The translations under genes were made by a program, and so were the position numbers. This document shows, piece after piece, positions 32,832-45,915 of a DNA stretch of 64,000 bases (position 1 is the first letter of the stretch; each line of letters opens with the position of its first letter). The stretch spans positions 186,001 to 250,000 of the forward strand of contig JAUXTH010000189.1 in assembly GCA_030679035.1 (NCBI GenBank), in the 5' to 3' direction. The notes beneath the pieces were generated by a model that was not told the DNA's origin, searched no databases, and saw only the letters and a list, made by a program, of their open reading frames with translations. The DNA comes from Methylobacter sp. (GTDB taxonomy: Bacteria > Pseudomonadota > Gammaproteobacteria > Methylococcales > Methylomonadaceae).

Positions 32832-33667
32832 GACACGACAAGTTGGCAAAAACTATAGGCTGCCCACGGGCCTGTCACACGAAAACTAAAACCGTAGGCT
32901 TCATAGCGGTCGGCAATGTTACTGACTTGCTGCTGAAACGCGGCAACCTCTTTCACAGGGAGTAAGTACGCCCAATGCAAAACTTTATCATCCAACAACC
33001 GTCGTGAGCGAAAATCACGCATCAAGGGGCGCAATTGGTTTTGCATTGAGGTCAAGCATTGTGCCAGCCAGTCGTTCAAATCAGAGCTTAAGGTGCGGCG
33101 TAATTTCTGCTCTTCCAGATGACGGCGGCCTGCGGCTTCAGGCAAACAAAAACGACCGGAGTGCAGACCTTCGGCGAATAAAGAGTCAACCGCCTGTTTA
33201 CGATCCAGTGTTGCTTCCAGTGACCATTCTTGGCAGCCTTTTATATGCTGTAGTACCGCCAACACTTCAGTAGAGCGGTGCGTCATTTCCTGCTCCAACG
33301 CGCTCACACTGGAAAATAGCGTACCGAACGATAAAGGATAAACCGAACCTTGATCCATCGCCGCGCCAGTTCCCGACTGGCTTGCGGCATACACACCATC
33401 CCTGGCGATAAGCCTGTCGATGATCAGCGCGTGCCGGCAAGCGCGTGGCGTTAGCCATGCGACATTCTGGACGTTGTTTTCACCGATTTCACCGGTAAAA
33501 TCGGATAGCAGCACCGAACTGATCACCGCATTCAACCCAGCGCATTGATGTACGCTAATCGGATGCTGATTGTCGACGCCCAAAATCGGCGGTGCGACTG
33601 AATCGGGCAAAGTAAAACCATACACATAAATAGCTTGGGTGGTCTGCACTTCAGTGATCACCGTCAT
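32828..33667 (-). CDS. gvpF: Gas vesicle protein GvpF/GvpL family (gvpF2 position)
   Basis: A 279-residue GvpF/L protein. It has IYVYGFTLP near the N terminus, VYPLSFGTLF near residue 105 at the place of the usual PMRFG motif, and TGPWAAYSF at the end. The PLSFG variant is unusual. It overlaps both neighbours by ATGA, so the AAA ATPase, gvpF2 and gvpF3 are translationally coupled. It is one of three GvpF/L proteins in the cluster. Confidence 0.85.
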   Translation of the reverse strand: MTVITEVQTTQAIYVYGFTLPDSVAPPILGVDNQHPISVHQCAGLNAVISSVLLSDFTGEIGENNVQNVAWLTPRACRHALIIDRLIARDGVYAASQSGTGAAMDQGSVYPLSFGTLFSSVSALEQEMTHRSTEVLAVLQHIKGCQEWSLEATLDRKQAVDSLFAEGLHSGRFCLPEAAGRRHLEEQKLRRTLSSDLNDWLAQCLTSMQNQLRPLMRDFRSRRLLDDKVLHWAYLLPVKEVAAFQQQVSNIADRYEAYGFSFRVTGPWAAYSFCQLVVS

Positions 33668-35826
33668 GCCTCATCGCCAAACATTTCTGCAATCACTTCG
33701 TCAAAATCATGCAGTTCTATGCGTACCGTCAGTTTCACTGGCACCTCATCGCCTTTCGACTGGCTCAGGACAGGCTCTTTGCTTTGTTGTACTGCGCGGC
33801 GCAATGCCGCTAGCGCGGCGCGATTACACACTGCCGCCAATTCGGCGCCACTGGCATCGTGACAACGCGCGGCTAAATCTTCGGCACGAATATTTGCACC
33901 CAAAGGCTTATTACGCAAATGCACCGCCAGAATCTGCCGCCGCGCGTCCTCATCGGGCAGGCCCAGTTCGATGATTTCATCAAAGCGTCCCGGACGCAGC
34001 ATCGCGGGATCGATTAAATCCGCACGATTAGTCGCGCCCATAACGAAAACGCCTTTGAGTTCTTCCAAGCCATCCATTTCAGATAAAAATTGACTCAACA
34101 CCCGTTCAGCAACATGTGAATCGGTCGCGCCTTCACCACGAGCGGGGACGACAGAATCGACTTCATCGAGAAAAATAATGCACGGTGAAGCCTGACGGGC
34201 TTTGTGAAACAGTTCTCGCACCCCCTGTTCAGAATCACCGACATAGCGCGACATCAGTGCCGGCCCTTTGACTGAAATGACGTTAACGCCACTTTCATTA
34301 GCGACGGCTTTAGCAATCAGCGTCTTCCCTACGCCGGGCGGACCTGCCAACAGCAAGCCTTTAGGCGGTTTCACGCCCGCTTGCAGATAGAGGTCTGGGT
34401 ATTTGATCGGCCACTCTACCGACTCTATCAAGCGACGACGCACATCATCCAAACCGCCGACATCTTCCCAGCGCACATCGGGAATATCGACAAATAGCTC
34501 ACGAATCGCTGACGGCGATACTTCACACAAAGCGGCACGAAAATCATCCATTGTTACCGTCAACGCCGCCAGACGGTCATAAGGCAATTCTGCGGCACTG
34601 AAATCAATTTCAGGCAGTAAACGGCGTAAAGCGCTCATCGCGGCTTCGCGGCATAAGGCTTCCAAATCGGCACCGACAAAACCGTGGGTGACATCGGCAA
34701 TTACGTTCAGGTCAACATCGGCATTGAGCGGCATTCCTGTACTGTGAATTTCGATAATCTCGCGGCGACCTTCGCGGTCTGGAATAGGAATGGTGATTTC
34801 TCGATCAAAGCGCCCTGGACGACGCAACGCGGGATCAAGCGCATTGGGTAGATTGGTTGCGGCGATGACGATGACTTTGCCCCGACTCTTAAGACCATCC
34901 ATTAATGCGAGCAATTGCGCAACGATACGCTTCTCTACATCACCGACTACCTTGTCACGGCGCGGTGCAATAGAGTCAATTTCATCCAGAAAAATGATGC
35001 TGGGCCCTTTACGTCCGGCTTCCTCAAAAATTTTGCGTAAATGGGCTTCGCTTTCACCGTAAAACTTATGCACGATCTCCGGGCCACTGATGGTGAAAAA
35101 CTGCGCATCGGTTTCTTGCGCAATAATGCGGGCGATCAGGGTTTTGCCGCATCCCGGAGGGCCAGTGAGCAGCACACCTTTGGGGGCGTCTATGCCTAAA
35201 CGTTCGAAGACTTCAGGATAGCGCAACGGCAGCTCGATCATTTCCCGAATGCGCCGCACTTGACCTTTAAGACCGCCTACGTCTTCATAAGATAAACGTT
35301 GTGTATCAGGACTGGTATTTTTGGCTTCGCTCGATTTACTGATCACTAATGTAGTAGTCGGATTGATCAGCACTGCACCTGCTGGCGTGGTGCTGTCGAC
35401 TCTGAAATCAGCAGAACGACTGCCAAACAGATGAGCGCGTAATAAATCGCCTTTCTGCACGGGCAAGCCGTCGAGTAGACTGCCGATGTAATCCAAGTCA
35501 CGCTGGCTGGGAGTAATCGTAGTGGGAATGAGGACGATACGCGTGGCGTGTTTGCATGACACAGGTTCGATCTGGACCTTTTCATCTAAGCTCAGTCCTG
35601 CATTGCGCCGCGTTAAGCCGTCCAATTGCACAATGCCTTTATTGCGCATATCAGGATAAGTCGGCATCAGCTTGGCAATCCCCATGCCTTTTTTACTGTT
35701 TAACTGCACAATGTCACCGACGGACAAGTTCAATTTAGCCATATCGGCGGGGTCTAAACGGGCGTAACCGCGTCCAGCATCCTTAGGCAAGGCTTCAGCC
35801 ACTTTGAGCTTGAGTTCTTCAGACAT
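33664..35826 (-). CDS. CDC48-family tandem AAA ATPase (gvpZ position)
   Basis: A 720-residue protein: Cdc48-type N domain (LKVAEALPKDAGRGYARLDP onward), D1 AAA domain with Walker A GPPGCGKTL near residue 225 and IIFLDEIDSIAPRRD, then D2 with GPPGVGKTL near 497 and IIFLDEVDS. Both second-region-of-homology arginines (RRPGRFD and LRPGRFD) are visible. It should unfold or remodel protein complexes; in this cluster a role in vesicle assembly or GvpA handling is inferred. Residues 680-692 (KEPVLSQSKG) come from an in-frame palindromic repeat. Confidence 0.88.
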   Translation of the reverse strand: MSEELKLKVAEALPKDAGRGYARLDPADMAKLNLSVGDIVQLNSKKGMGIAKLMPTYPDMRNKGIVQLDGLTRRNAGLSLDEKVQIEPVSCKHATRIVLIPTTITPSQRDLDYIGSLLDGLPVQKGDLLRAHLFGSRSADFRVDSTTPAGAVLINPTTTLVISKSSEAKNTSPDTQRLSYEDVGGLKGQVRRIREMIELPLRYPEVFERLGIDAPKGVLLTGPPGCGKTLIARIIAQETDAQFFTISGPEIVHKFYGESEAHLRKIFEEAGRKGPSIIFLDEIDSIAPRRDKVVGDVEKRIVAQLLALMDGLKSRGKVIVIAATNLPNALDPALRRPGRFDREITIPIPDREGRREIIEIHSTGMPLNADVDLNVIADVTHGFVGADLEALCREAAMSALRRLLPEIDFSAAELPYDRLAALTVTMDDFRAALCEVSPSAIRELFVDIPDVRWEDVGGLDDVRRRLIESVEWPIKYPDLYLQAGVKPPKGLLLAGPPGVGKTLIAKAVANESGVNVISVKGPALMSRYVGDSEQGVRELFHKARQASPCIIFLDEVDSVVPARGEGATDSHVAERVLSQFLSEMDGLEELKGVFVMGATNRADLIDPAMLRPGRFDEIIELGLPDEDARRQILAVHLRNKPLGANIRAEDLAARCHDASGAELAAVCNRAALAALRRAVQQSKEPVLSQSKGDEVPVKLTVRIELHDFDEVIAEMFGDEA
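33752..33787. repeat. In-frame palindromic repeat inside CDC48-type ATPase gene
   Basis: ctttcgactggctcaggaca and the following ggctctttgctttg belong to the same family as 32788-32826. It encodes about a dozen residues near the C terminus, beyond the D2 ATPase core. Confidence 0.75.
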
Positions 35827-35833
35827 GACCGCC

Positions 35834-36340
35834 TCACTTTTTTAGTTTGACTTCCAAAATGCCGTTACGACAAGACCGTTCCATCGCTTTGTCATCAAAC
35901 GAACGCGGCAACACGATTTCTTTATGATATTTCTTGCTGCCTCTTTCAGCGTGAAGCGTCAGAATGTCGCCGTCCAAGTCTAAATGCACATCCTCATCAG
36001 CGACCCCCGGCATTTCCGCCAATACCAAGACATGATCGCTTTCTTCGATGACATCGACCAGCGGTTCAGACACTTCCTGCACTGTGGTTTCACCGGTTTG
36101 CTCATCTCGGCGTATATTGCCGAAAGGCTCTACGCGAGTTTCCTGGTTCTCATCCAAGCCCATTTTTACTGAAAAACCGTAAACTGCCTTAGCATTTTTG
36201 CCGCTGCTCGTGTCGATATCGAACGCACCGCTACGCTTTATTTGTTCACCGGTTTCCGCCAATTTTTCCACCAAATCGCCTAAGCCGCGCAAAATGCCTT
36301 CGACATTGCCGGTCAAGTTACCTTTTTTTTTGCTACTCAT
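35834..36340 (-). CDS. gvpH: Hsp20/alpha-crystallin-like gas vesicle protein GvpH
   Basis: A 168-residue protein with a variable N-terminal half (TGNVEGILRGLGDLVEKLAE) and a C-terminal Hsp20-like domain (MPGVADEDVHLDLDGDILTL). The N-terminal GxL-GL pattern is typical of GvpH. It may act as a holdase for the very hydrophobic GvpA or tune vesicle number. Its start overlaps the NtrC-type regulator stop by ATGA. Confidence 0.82.
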   Translation of the reverse strand: MSSKKKGNLTGNVEGILRGLGDLVEKLAETGEQIKRSGAFDIDTSSGKNAKAVYGFSVKMGLDENQETRVEPFGNIRRDEQTGETTVQEVSEPLVDVIEESDHVLVLAEMPGVADEDVHLDLDGDILTLHAERGSKKYHKEIVLPRSFDDKAMERSCRNGILEVKLKK

Positions 36341-39992: not shown

Positions 39993-41945
39993 TTATAGAA
40001 ACAATGCCGAACCCAAAGCCTTTAGCTCACTTAAGCCAGTAGGCTCTATTTGCCGATAAATTTGTGCTTGCGGCTGGTTAGGAAAAATGTCATGCGTACG
40101 TTCAAGTTGCAACGATTCACGTGCATTGATTGCCTGGCACAATGCACAATCGCTGACGGGTGTAATCTGATTGATAAACAACGCTTTTGCCGTCATGCCT
40201 AGTCGCTGCAATGCGCATATCATTTCACTGGTTTTTTCTATCGCCAAATGGGTCGGAATGGTGACCGCATACAATTCTGTTTGTTCGATATTTTGCAACA
40301 GAATGCGTAGATTCTTTAATTCGCGTGAGAGCTGTACCAAGCGTTCTGATAAATGTGGCAACCGCATGATCTGGCGGTATTTTAGCAACAACGAAAAGAA
40401 CTGTTTTAGCCAATCTCGAATCAATTCAGGCAATTCCAGTAAACGTAGTAAATGCCCGCTAGGCGCGGCATCTACTATTATCGTGTCATAACGGTCACTG
40501 TCGAGATGATTCATGATCGTGGTCAATGCCATAATTTCATCTAATCCGGGGGGGGCTAAATCGAGCAAATGTTCCATCACTTCACGATCAAAGGTAATAT
40601 CCAGACGCGGTAAAGCATCCTGCAAAAAACCTTCCAATTCTGCACGATAGTCGCGCCGAATTTTTTCGAAGTCAGCTTTTGCATTGATTTCCTGGGCATC
40701 GATTTTAACCAACCCTGTCCTGAGCGTAGTCGAAGGAAGCGTAGTCGAAGGGACTGAAGTAGGATGCCGTTGTACGTTTATTCCCAGACAATCGCTAAGC
40801 GAATGCGCGGGGTCTGTTGAGAATAATAGAATGCGCAATTGCGGATATTCGCTATGCAAGCGCAATGCTGTGGCACAGGCCAAGGTAGTCTTGCCCACAC
40901 CGCCTTTGCCTGCAAAAATCAATAGCCGTAATGTGCTGGCAGGTAGCTGAATGGGATTTTCTACATGCAAGGGCAATTTATAACTATAAGCAGTAGGCAT
41001 GACTTCGTTTTTTTCAAGTAAACGCACCTCTGACCACAGTGAGTAAAGTAGCTTGCCGCTAGGTTCTGCGGCAAGTAAAGGCAGCGTCCAAAACAGGTGT
41101 CCAGGTAAGCGTTTGAGGGCGTTCTTAAGCGCGAGCATTTGCCTGCTGCGTTCAGCTAAACAGGTCGGGCAATCGTTTTTAGGAAACAATCGATTGACCA
41201 CCAGATCGGACATAAACACCCGCTGTTTATTCAAGGCGTTGACGAGATCAATACTTTCCTCCACACTCATCGTCTCCGCCAGCATCACTAAAATAAAACA
41301 ACAACGCCCCGTGTCAGTCATCAGACTGTGCATGGCTTTTAGTGAATCATTCATGTCCAGTAGAAAATGATCCAAATGATCTAATCGATTATCGCCGCCA
41401 AAACGTTTTCGCATGTAGCGGTGTTTGGCGAGCAAGGTATCCAAAGCCGTCAACCACCGATGAATCAGATCAGGCATTTCCAAAAGCCGCAATGTATGCC
41501 CCGTAGGTGCGGTATCTATAATGATACGGTAGTAGATATCTTGTTGAATCCACTCAGCGATTTCAAGATAAGCCGCCAATTCATCCATACCCGGAAGCGC
41601 GGCATCCATTAAACCTTGAATGTCGTTTTTGTCGAGGAAAGTACCGCGATCAGCGATTTCTTTCAGGAGGGCATCGTGTCGCATTTTGAACTCATGCAAG
41701 GAAGCGGCGGCATTTAATTCGCGCACCTCCAAATTCTTGGGCAACACCAGATCGGAAAGAATATTTTTCAGGGAGTGCGCTGGATCGGTAGAAACCAGCA
41801 AGAAATGGTGGTGTGGTTGTTCTTGCGCCAACTTTAACGCAGTCGCACTTGCACAGGTACTTTTTCCTACACCGCCTTTACCTCCGAAGAAGACCAATTT
41901 CAGCAGTGACTCCTGTAAAAATTTGGGATAAATCGCAAGTTTCAT
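39993..41945 (-). CDS. Tandem ArsA/Get3-type ATPase (gvpW position)
   Basis: A 650-residue protein made of two ArsA/Get3 halves. Half 1 has P-loop GGKGGVGKST (21-30), DTAPTGHTLRLLE (near 144) and CPTC (259-262). Half 2 has P-loop AGKGGVGKTT (345-354), DAAPSGHLLRLLE (near 497) and CALC (600-603). In Get3 the CxxC pair binds the Zn2+ that joins the dimer and the protein carries tail-anchored membrane proteins. A role in chaperoning hydrophobic GvpA-type proteins is my inference. Residues 396-411 derive from an in-frame palindromic repeat. It overlaps gvpG by ATGA. Confidence 0.85.
   Translation of the reverse strand: MKLAIYPKFLQESLLKLVFFGGKGGVGKSTCASATALKLAQEQPHHHFLLVSTDPAHSLKNILSDLVLPKNLEVRELNAAASLHEFKMRHDALLKEIADRGTFLDKNDIQGLMDAALPGMDELAAYLEIAEWIQQDIYYRIIIDTAPTGHTLRLLEMPDLIHRWLTALDTLLAKHRYMRKRFGGDNRLDHLDHFLLDMNDSLKAMHSLMTDTGRCCFILVMLAETMSVEESIDLVNALNKQRVFMSDLVVNRLFPKNDCPTCLAERSRQMLALKNALKRLPGHLFWTLPLLAAEPSGKLLYSLWSEVRLLEKNEVMPTAYSYKLPLHVENPIQLPASTLRLLIFAGKGGVGKTTLACATALRLHSEYPQLRILLFSTDPAHSLSDCLGINVQRHPTSVPSTTLPSTTLRTGLVKIDAQEINAKADFEKIRRDYRAELEGFLQDALPRLDITFDREVMEHLLDLAPPGLDEIMALTTIMNHLDSDRYDTIIVDAAPSGHLLRLLELPELIRDWLKQFFSLLLKYRQIMRLPHLSERLVQLSRELKNLRILLQNIEQTELYAVTIPTHLAIEKTSEMICALQRLGMTAKALFINQITPVSDCALCQAINARESLQLERTHDIFPNQPQAQIYRQIEPTGLSELKALGSALFL
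40712..40753. repeat. In-frame palindromic repeat inside Get3-like ATPase gene
   Basis: The core cctgtcctgagcgtagtcga is followed by a second gtagtcgaaggga unit. Read on the minus strand it encodes SVPSTTLPSTTLRTG, a Ser/Thr-rich insertion between beta strands of the second ATPase half. Confidence 0.78.
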
Positions 41946-43572: not shown

Positions 43573-44562
43573 CTACTCCACCACTTTCATTTTTTGTGTG
43601 GATGCTTTGACAGCTTCTGAACCCACTGGCGGACAAATTTTGCGAATAACATCATCGACCATTTCATGAAAGATCGAGTGTCCGGCACGCTGTATTTTAG
43701 CCGTTTCCATGCTCAAAACATCGTAGCAAATAGAATGGAATAACTTGTCGCCATAACGCGGCTTCATTCCTTGCAAGGACAAGATGCTGGCAATGGCAAT
43801 TCCCGCGCGTAACCCGTGTTTGGTTTCGTGTTCATTGCCACGCAACTCCCTGACTATATCAACGATATATGCCGACTCTTTTAATTCCAAGTCAGAACGT
43901 GCATGTAATATCTGTAATTCAGTATCCCGATCTGCAAGACCGATATTGATGGTAATCATACGGTCCATCAGGGCATCTTGGGTCTTGTGCGTACCCGCGT
44001 ATTCTTCTGGATTGGAGGTAAAAATAGCGCGAAAGCTTGAGTGTACGTCCATAAAACCCTCTCCAGCGCCACGTAAACCGGGCAAGTTCAAAATGCCTTC
44101 GGACAACACCGATAACAGCACGTTATTGGTTTCTGCCTTCGAACGATTGAACTCATCATAAATCAGCATATCGCCATTGCGACACGCGGTCGTCAAACGG
44201 TTATCCACCCACATGCGGTTCATCTGTTCTTCAGTTTTAAGTACCGAATGAATGTAGTTATCGACTAAACTGCTTTTGCGATAGCCAATGTCTTTTCCTG
44301 TTAAATCGGAACTTACGAATTCTTCGTTACCTTGCAACAAGGTGACGGGGCGACCCCATTGTGTAGCAAGATGAAATGCTAAAGTTGTTTTTCCTGTTCC
44401 CGATGGACCAGCAAAATGTACGGGATAGCCTGCGTGTAAATAAACCAACGCGCGATCTATAATATCTTTTACATAAGAAGTCAGTACAAAATGATCACTC
44501 GCCTCTGGAACGACAAGGTCATCTTCCACGGTATAATGTGAAACGGTATTTTGCTTAATCAT
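43573..44562 (-). CDS. gvpN: Gas vesicle protein GvpN (MoxR-type AAA+ ATPase)
   Basis: A 329-residue AAA+ ATPase. Walker A GPSGTGKTT lies near residues 51-59, MLIYDEFNRSK near 135 is the Walker B region, and ILNLPGLRGAGEGFMDVH is part of the MoxR-like core. The ATG at 44562 has AGGAG 8 bases upstream; the upstream frame is not needed. GvpN acts with GvpC in vesicle enlargement in halophiles and cyanobacteria. Confidence 0.93.
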   Translation of the reverse strand: MIKQNTVSHYTVEDDLVVPEASDHFVLTSYVKDIIDRALVYLHAGYPVHFAGPSGTGKTTLAFHLATQWGRPVTLLQGNEEFVSSDLTGKDIGYRKSSLVDNYIHSVLKTEEQMNRMWVDNRLTTACRNGDMLIYDEFNRSKAETNNVLLSVLSEGILNLPGLRGAGEGFMDVHSSFRAIFTSNPEEYAGTHKTQDALMDRMITINIGLADRDTELQILHARSDLELKESAYIVDIVRELRGNEHETKHGLRAGIAIASILSLQGMKPRYGDKLFHSICYDVLSMETAKIQRAGHSIFHEMVDDVIRKICPPVGSEAVKASTQKMKVVE

Positions 44563-44701
44563 AAAAATACTCCTGTGCCAAACGGTATATGTTTCCCACA
44601 CTGGTGGGGCTGAAGCTCTGGATAAAAATCATCAGAGTTGTCTTAGAGAAGATGTTCTTACAGCTGTGGGGCTCTGACTGACAAAATAAAAACACCACAA
44701 C

Positions 44702-44850: not shown

Positions 44851-45103
44851 CTATTTGCCTTTCTTCGCGCCAAAAAACTCACTAGGTTTTCTTTTAGGTT
44901 TTTTGATTTCATCGGCTTCTGTACGCTCGGAAGCCGCTTCTATCGGCTCGAAGAGCTCTGTATGTCGTGATGACGGCGCAGCTGTTTGCTCAACTTCTGG
45001 TAGCACAGGTTGTGCACTTCCATGTGCTTCATGTTGGCTTAGCGAACCTTCAACACTTCCAGCCGGAGTCTCATTAAGATGAATGGCTATGCTGGGAATG
45101 GTG
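44851..45103 (-). other. C-terminal reading frame of gvpC beyond a poly-A slip site
   Basis: Directly after the A10 run in gvpC, the frame offset by one base is open for 84 codons to TAG at 44851-44853. It reads NTIPSIAIHLNETPAGSVEG, continues acidic and Pro-rich (PEVEQTAAPSSRHTELFEP) and ends KKPKRKPSEFFGAKKGK. It has no start codon of its own with a ribosome site. A -1 ribosomal slip or an eleventh A joins it to gvpC, giving about 243 residues. Confidence 0.65.
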
Positions 45104-45581
45104 TTTTTTTTTTAGACGTGGCTGTGCCGAAAAATACGGCGTGAGCACCTGCTCTGTCTTGCGCAACATCTTTGATAAAAGCAGCAACATTGTTAGTCAT
45201 ATCGGCAATGAAAACCGCTCTTTCTTTGGCACTGCGTTCAGCCATACTTTTGCGATTAGCCTTAAAGCTGCCTAATAAATCCAGCGTCTTCTTTGACATA
45301 TCGGTCAAGAAAGCAGCACGGTCTTCGCGGCCCTGCCGTCCCATCACTTGATGCGTATGCCGAAATTCATTCAGTAAGCGATTAACATCATTGGTATTAT
45401 CGGTGACAAATGCCGCCCGCACGTGTGCATCTCGCACGCCATTCCTTGCGCGGGTAGCAGCAAAGTCAGCAATTTGCGCGCTTACACTGAAAACTCGTGC
45501 ATTTTGTTGTGCTAAACGGGATTCACGACTACCGTCAATGTTTCTACGTAACTGCGCCATATCATCTGTTAAGCGTCCCAT
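45087..45581 (-). CDS. gvpC: Gas vesicle outer-scaffold protein GvpC (ends early at A10 run)
   Basis: A 164-residue protein with about 33-residue repeats: AAFVTDNTNDVNRLLNEF (57-), AAFLTDMSKKTLDLLGSF (89-) and AVFIADMTNNVAAFIKDV (122-), with a weaker one before. GvpC wraps the GvpA shell and strengthens it. The frame stops eight codons past a run of ten A bases (45104-45113), while an 84-codon tail continues in the -1 frame (44851-45103). Sequencing error, phase variation or programmed slippage could explain this. It lies second after gvpA. Confidence 0.85.
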   Translation of the reverse strand: MGRLTDDMAQLRRNIDGSRESRLAQQNARVFSVSAQIADFAATRARNGVRDAHVRAAFVTDNTNDVNRLLNEFRHTHQVMGRQGREDRAAFLTDMSKKTLDLLGSFKANRKSMAERSAKERAVFIADMTNNVAAFIKDVAQDRAGAHAVFFGTATSKKKTPFPA

Positions 45582-45696: not shown

Positions 45697-45915
45697 TTAA
45701 GCTGGAGTAGCTGCACTGGCGGTAAGACCAATGGCTTCTGCGTATTTCAAATAGGTTTCAACAGAAGCAATAACAACGCGTGCTTCTATAGACAACAATT
45801 CGATACCGACCAATGAAACCTTGACCCAAGCATCAATAACAATGCCTTTGTCCAGAATACGGTCTACTACTTCAGCTAAGCTAGAAGAGTCAGTTGATTT
45901 TTGAACTTTAGCCAT
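45697..45915 (-). CDS. gvpA: Major gas vesicle structural protein GvpA
   Basis: A 72-residue GvpA with the highly conserved core: [40 protein letters not shown] and [14 protein letters not shown]. It forms the ribs of the gas vesicle wall. AGGAGA lies 9 bases before the ATG. It is the first gene of the operon, about 70 bases downstream of a sigma-54-type promoter, and is followed by attenuator-like hairpins. Confidence 0.97.

Follow-up and report, generated by a model that had tools for sequence, protein, structure and literature searches.

Gas vesicles are buoyancy organelles that are used as ultrasound contrast agents, and they are reinforced by the protein GvpC. In Anabaena flos-aquae, GvpC is built from five helical repeats of 33 residues, is placed on the outside, along the ribs, and increases the collapse pressure of the vesicle (PMC9994262), and the gene order gvpA-C-N has been described for a cyanobacterial operon (PMC3542288). 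Gas vesicle clusters of Methylobacter were reported from a genome survey, and M. psychrophilus is described as forming vesicles at 7 to 20 °C and none below (PMC12810054). The gene studied here lies in a window of 64,000 nucleotides (the whole stretch of DNA that was analysed) from a Methylobacter sp. genome. It shares the 33-residue repeats and the gene order with these systems; unlike GvpC of Anabaena flos-aquae, its product is not matched by the family model PF01304, and the gene contains a candidate slippage site followed by an alternative tail.

For this arrangement of frames, a close described counterpart is dnaX, in which Thermus thermophilus uses transcriptional slippage on A9. As in gvpC, nine to ten A stand within the gene, two forms have a common N-terminal part, the unwanted frames have nearby stops, and bacteria differ in whether the long or the short form is the default; nine of the dnaX genes that are divided between two frames carry A10 (PMC1088944, PMC3711429, PMC5009743). 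Unlike gvpC, dnaX encodes a polymerase subunit, and slippage was measured there whereas we infer it for gvpC. CsoS2 of the alpha-carboxysomes resembles GvpC as a repetitive shell-organising protein made from one gene with and without a C-terminal region (CsoS2A/CsoS2B), by description only; in contrast to our proposal for gvpC, its two forms arise ribosomally and its C-terminal region binds the shell (PMC11365436). In Shigella, the two frames of mxiE are connected by transcriptional slippage, on which the longer product depends (PMC1088944); the run in mxiE is U and the gene encodes a regulator, so that this likeness is also one of description only. The open-access literature that we searched, a scope that leaves aside most subscription journals, contained nothing on a frameshift or slippage in gvpC.

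The gvpC locus and its reading frames

The features of the locus are the following (window coordinates):

45697..45915, minus strand: gvpA, upstream neighbour of gvpC (PF00741, E 2e-17)
45087..45581, minus strand: gvpC in the zero frame, short form of 164 amino acids with the C-terminus ...TPFPA, between gvpA and gvpN (33-residue periodicity, z 8.0)
45123..45419, minus strand: three 33-residue repeats from residues 55, 88 and 121 onward, with an R..F motif at 55, 88 and 121 and the best self-match at lag 33
45104..45113, minus strand: A10, candidate slippage site, a conserved run read in the zero frame as TCT AAA AAA AAA ACA
45087..45089, minus strand: TAG stop of the short form, built from the tail-frame codons ATA GCC (Ile-Ala)
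44851..45105, minus strand: tail in the -1 frame, 84 codons plus stop, for a long form of 243 amino acids
44854..44907, minus strand: basic C-terminal 18 residues of the tail (KKPKRKP...KKGK), K+R > D+E
43573..44601, minus strand: gvpN, downstream neighbour of gvpC (TIGR02640, E 3.4e-96, above cut-off; the start is the GTG of the ORF list)

Exactly ten A occupy 45113..45104. In the -1 frame, the first codon after the Lys codons begins at 45105, 84 codons are open and the stop ends at 44851. The original prediction, a gvpC of 164 codons that reaches A10 and a -1 frame open for 84 codons, was exact to the base. The product sizes it gave, about 164 and 243 residues, were reproduced from the frames with three Lys codons at the joint counted in the long form, and its description of the tail as acidic and then basic agrees with the charges, namely 2 K+R against 12 D+E in the body and 8 against 1 in the last 18 residues. 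Downstream of gvpN, also on the minus strand, are two small frames with no significant family match, and after them gvpF/L and gvpG.

The A10 of gvpC is the sole A/T run of at least ten in its assembly (4,792,876 bases), which by contrast contains 38 windows of nine A/T. This uniqueness is a property of that genome only, since 24 relatives have 2 to 82 A10 windows each. The 82 windows of one relative, G228, are all forward with no reverse ones, a pattern suggestive of at least one long poly-A stretch in its assembly. As a control, we considered the only other run of nine A in the window (36323..36331), which forms codons 4-6 of a gvpH-like gene of the same cluster (35834..36340, minus strand) that we take to belong to the Hsp20-like family. 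In L139 of M. tundripaludum, the nearest relative, the corresponding run is A6, and hence an A-run in the vicinity is not conserved as such. Elsewhere in the window, a G8 run (40548..40555) inside the double ArsA-like ATPase gene of the cluster (39993..41945, minus strand) is another possible slip site. In this gene and in a further ATPase gene (33664..35826) there are short stretches (VLSQSKG, STTLRTG) that seem similar to segments of a REP-like repeat translated in frame.

Assignment of the protein to GvpC

We treat the window protein as GvpC on the grounds of its repeats and gene position and not of a family model. The best self-match lag was 33 in nine of nine proteins tested (z 7.4-17.3, the window protein at 8.0 included), which is the repeat length of the Anabaena protein (PMC9994262). 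A GvpN motif lies downstream of gvpC in all 20 loci found in the family (see below), and a GvpA motif lies upstream in 16 of them; the remaining four have at most 258 bases of upstream DNA. The number of gvpA copies varies: tandem copies precede gvpC in L048 (four), L025 and L007 (three each) and L013 and L021 (two each), and the window has one gvpA within 1500 bases upstream. Of the named gvpC genes, the closest, at 96% identity, is from Methylobacter tundripaludum OWC-G53F.

Profile searches with the window protein gave no match to PF01304 (Gas_vesicle_C) or PF05465 (Halo_GVPC) at E<=1 and none to the NCBIfam models, and PF01304 searched against its genome found nothing at gvpC at E<=10. A tailless relative described below (L052) reached E 4e-4 with PF05465, at 21.0 bits against a cut-off of 22.4. 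The structure prediction consists of helices at residues 2-113 and 118-150 (mean pLDDT 82.7 in the best of five models and 44-63 in the others; pTM 0.34, weak), a long helix that carries little information on the fold. Matches to sequences of solved structures, REM1.1 (E 0.041) and keratin (E 0.61), were at chance level and were discarded.

Conservation of the adenine run and the tail within the family

A search of 237 genomes of the family, sampled at one genome per species and mostly drafts and metagenome bins, found the gene in 19 genomes (the window's own included) and 20 loci. Three pairs of loci are near-copies (L015/L023, L017/L018 and L028/L022), and two rows were kept outside the counts: L030, which is deltaproteobacterial and 28% identical, and L055 (genome G439, E 2.2e-4). 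All 20 loci have an A-run at the same place, of nine (three loci), ten (13), eleven (one) or twelve (three) bases. The short form ends 2-5 codons past the Lys codons, with its stop 5-15 bases after the run, and the +1 frame closes within 3-11 codons. The -1 frame continues for 60-85 codons, the last Lys counted, and not one of the 20 loci encodes its tail in the zero frame. The gvpC heads are 47-96% identical to that of the window, and the arrangement is therefore old.

The tail frame is open more than expected by chance. Over the 20 loci it contains no stop in 1455 codons, compared with 93 and 169 stops in the other two frames (1435 codons each), and over 12 representatives it contains none in 847 codons, compared with 51 and 92 in 835. 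Tail length varies among loci. Most tails begin in a manner similar to P-S-I-A; 19 of the 20 have an acidic middle part, and all 20 finish with 18 residues of basic character (K+R > D+E). The substitution signal for selection on the tail is weak and depends on the pairs chosen, and we do not count it among the main evidence: pN/pS was 0.51 on one set of six pairs and 0.68 on another, and the control frames gave 0.64-0.90. A comparison with relatives, proposed in the original prediction as a check, thus had a divided outcome: all homologues in the family end at the short form, and their tail is conserved nonetheless in its open frame and basic end.

Codon choice at the frame junction

The stop of the short form overlaps the Ile-Ala of the tail. 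In 19 of the 20 family loci, TAG consists of the last two bases of an xTA codon of the tail and the following G (15 ATA, 4 TTA), and L029 has TGA at the matching place. In a second group of loci described below, TAG is found in all six, made from ATA (three), GTA (two) or CTA (one); there it belongs to the +1 frame and follows the run at 13-15 nt. Both groups together, 25 of 26 loci derive the same TAG from an xTA codon and a following G. These codons are uncommon in the ORF samples: ATA accounts for 0.163 of Ile codons in the window's genome, 0.233 in G061 and 0.155 in the second group, TTA for 0.164 of Leu codons in the window's genome and 0.227 in G061, and GTA and CTA for 0.110 of Val and 0.087 of Leu codons, respectively, in the second group. 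Nine Ile codons of distinct family representatives are all ATA, for which a share of 0.233 gives about 2e-6 if they were independent; related sequences are not, and these odds are indicative only. Because uncommon xTA codons make the same TAG in 25 of 26 loci, the stop being kept although the amino acid changes, the pattern suggests that both products are under selection. For the second group, inheritance rather than maintenance might be part of the reason for the TAG. A further bias concerns lysine at the joint: none of its three or four codons there is AAG in 20 of 20 family loci, AAG being about one third of Lys codons in the sample from the window's genome.

Tailed and tailless GvpC in the order and beyond

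Across 311 genomes of the order, 28 had a match, namely the 19 family genomes and nine more. Six of the latter (G281, G282, G283, G284, G285 and G287; genus g44 of family f4) form the second group, with a longer GvpC (partial in G284). All six have A10 or A11 shortly past the FF motif that closes the repeats, and in all six the tail is in the main (zero) frame and the other two frames close 1-44 bases after the run. The three remaining genomes (G270 and G271 of family f4, G296 of f5; rows L052, L051 and L053, Methylococcales) encode a GvpC of 93-101 residues downstream of gvpA, which ends at the matching place and has neither an A-run nor a tail there. Tailless and tailed GvpC thus both occur in genes that would need no slipping, and the tailed groups keep a run that is predicted to be slippery whichever form the DNA spells.

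The tail profiles of the two tailed groups match over the first 15 columns only (hhalign probability 8%, E 0.0041). In the tree, from which L022 (incomplete head) and L050 (cut on its 5' side) were left out, a branch with support 98/99 separates the rows with the short frame from all others, and two changes suffice to account for the three states. Under a midpoint root, chosen purely for display, the family arises from within the rows with the tail in frame. Searches at wider range matched 3 of 369 genomes in the class and 1 of 398 in the phylum, the window's genome being counted in both, and the plasmid search gave no match.

A slippage model for gvpC

From these patterns, gvpC of these methanotrophs is probably a programmed-slippage gene, in which RNA polymerase slips on the A-run and a short and a long GvpC result. 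RNA polymerase would slip on the at least nine A:T pairs and produce mRNAs with A-runs of differing length. In the family, an unslipped mRNA would encode the short GvpC, that is, the 33-residue repeats and a few residues; an mRNA that has gained one A, or lost two, would join the repeats to the tail of about 60-85 residues, with its P-S-I-A-like start, acidic (19/20 loci) and probably disordered middle and basic end; and an mRNA with one A fewer would also end within 3-11 codons. In the second group, where the run has the other phase, the unslipped mRNA would give the long form and slipped mRNA the short one. The repeats of both forms are expected to bind the GvpA ribs, and the tail would be carried by the long form only.

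An A/T run of at least nine stands at the frame junction in 26 of 26 tailed loci, and runs of nine A are described as slip-prone for bacterial RNA polymerase, Thermus dnaX using one (PMC1088944, PMC5009743). All 20 family loci imply one and the same shift, and the two groups imply different ones. A differing direction is the criterion of Antonov et al. for transcriptional realignment (PMC3711429); by it, the difference between the groups speaks for transcriptional slippage and the uniform direction inside the family for the ribosome.

Alternative explanations for the frame junction

The main rival is programmed -1 ribosomal frameshifting on A AAA AAA, which would join the tail to the repeats from a faithful mRNA. 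By the same criterion it is what the family on its own predicts, since the direction is identical in all 20 loci, each of which requires -1, and the family runs allow an in-phase reading as A AAA AAA. Iterated AAA codons disturb ribosomes of E. coli (PMC4363877), CsoS2 provides a shell-organising protein with two forms from ribosomal frameshifting (PMC11365436), and the RNA downstream is more structured than shuffled sequences in the three A12 loci and L016 (z -2.6 to -3.0) and in L024 (-2.2). Taken over all loci, however, the downstream z-scores spread from -3.0 to +1.3 and no stimulator is conserved: an SD-like motif within 30 nt upstream of the run was found in 3 of 20 family loci, and RNAalifold gave a consensus of 0 pairs over 11 rows, a weak test with two rows lacking the upstream part and bearing mainly on the downstream side. 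Slipping during transcription is preferred over the ribosome because the runs have at least nine A in 20 of 20 loci though seven would do, AAG is avoided and a conserved stimulator is missing. Frameshifting also fits the second group less well, where the conserved stop (6/6) belongs to the +1 frame, out of reach of a -1 slip, and the stops in the -1 frame are scattered 1 to 44 nt after the run. We therefore regard ribosomal frameshifting as the less likely mechanism, to be reckoned with chiefly within the family. That the frame transition is programmed in one of the two ways, at transcription or at the ribosome, appears very probable. Of the original proposal that two GvpC forms arise by a slip on the A-run, the core has gained from conservation in 26 loci of two families, transcriptional slippage fits best, and a -1 ribosomal slip stays the second candidate.

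Three further readings dispense with a programmed shift. Were the run to change its length in the DNA during replication, cells would switch between long-only and short-only states; poly-A can mutate, and the runs do range from 9 to 12 between species. Such phase variation, put forward in the original prediction, is disfavoured and seems to us improbable, as the frame is constant within each group over separate assemblies of one genome per species (short in 20/20, long in 6/6), length differences within the family are accompanied by flanks that keep the frame, and the short-frame rows share one side of the 98/99 branch. The tail could also be decaying DNA, a relic of an ancestral frameshift that shortened gvpC of the family, in line with the weak substitution signal and with the family branching from among tail-in-frame rows (under the midpoint root, drawn for display). 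We consider this very improbable in view of a tail frame with 0 stops against 93 and 169 in the others among heads down to 47% identical, a basic end in every tail, and the retention of the A-run itself. The dull possibility of the original prediction, a homopolymer error of sequencing or assembly in a gene that is truly one long frame, would be natural for an error-prone homopolymer in a draft of 216 contigs; it is as good as excluded by the repetition of the break in 20 loci of separate assemblies, among them G061, a single 4.8-Mb contig, and by the constant stop built from uncommon codons. Programmed transcriptional slippage is the reading that we consider most likely.

Discussion

The anatomy of the locus, its conservation, the bias at the short-form stop and the phase difference between the two groups are direct observations, from which we infer that slipping occurs, that it does so in transcription and that both proteins exist. 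A constant mixture of the two forms would fit the data as well as a switch. By analogy with known GvpC, the repeats would bind the vesicle and the tail would hang off it; as a conjecture, an acidic linker with a basic end might attach to further vesicles, to nucleic acid or to membrane, or might govern the spacing. It is a speculative and rather doubtful extension that the slipped share of gvpC mRNA responds to temperature, polymerase speed and nucleotide pools and thereby tunes the amount of tailed GvpC per vesicle, and hence clustering, anchoring or strength. As M. psychrophilus makes vesicles, cultures for testing exist.

If the model is true, gvpC would join the small number of cellular genes listed with programmed slippage, its default form being reversed between two related groups as has been noted for dnaX, and the joint would provide a natural fusion point after the last GvpC repeat. 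A tailed GvpC, missed by ordinary gene calling, would then alter the list of vesicle parts in methanotrophs.
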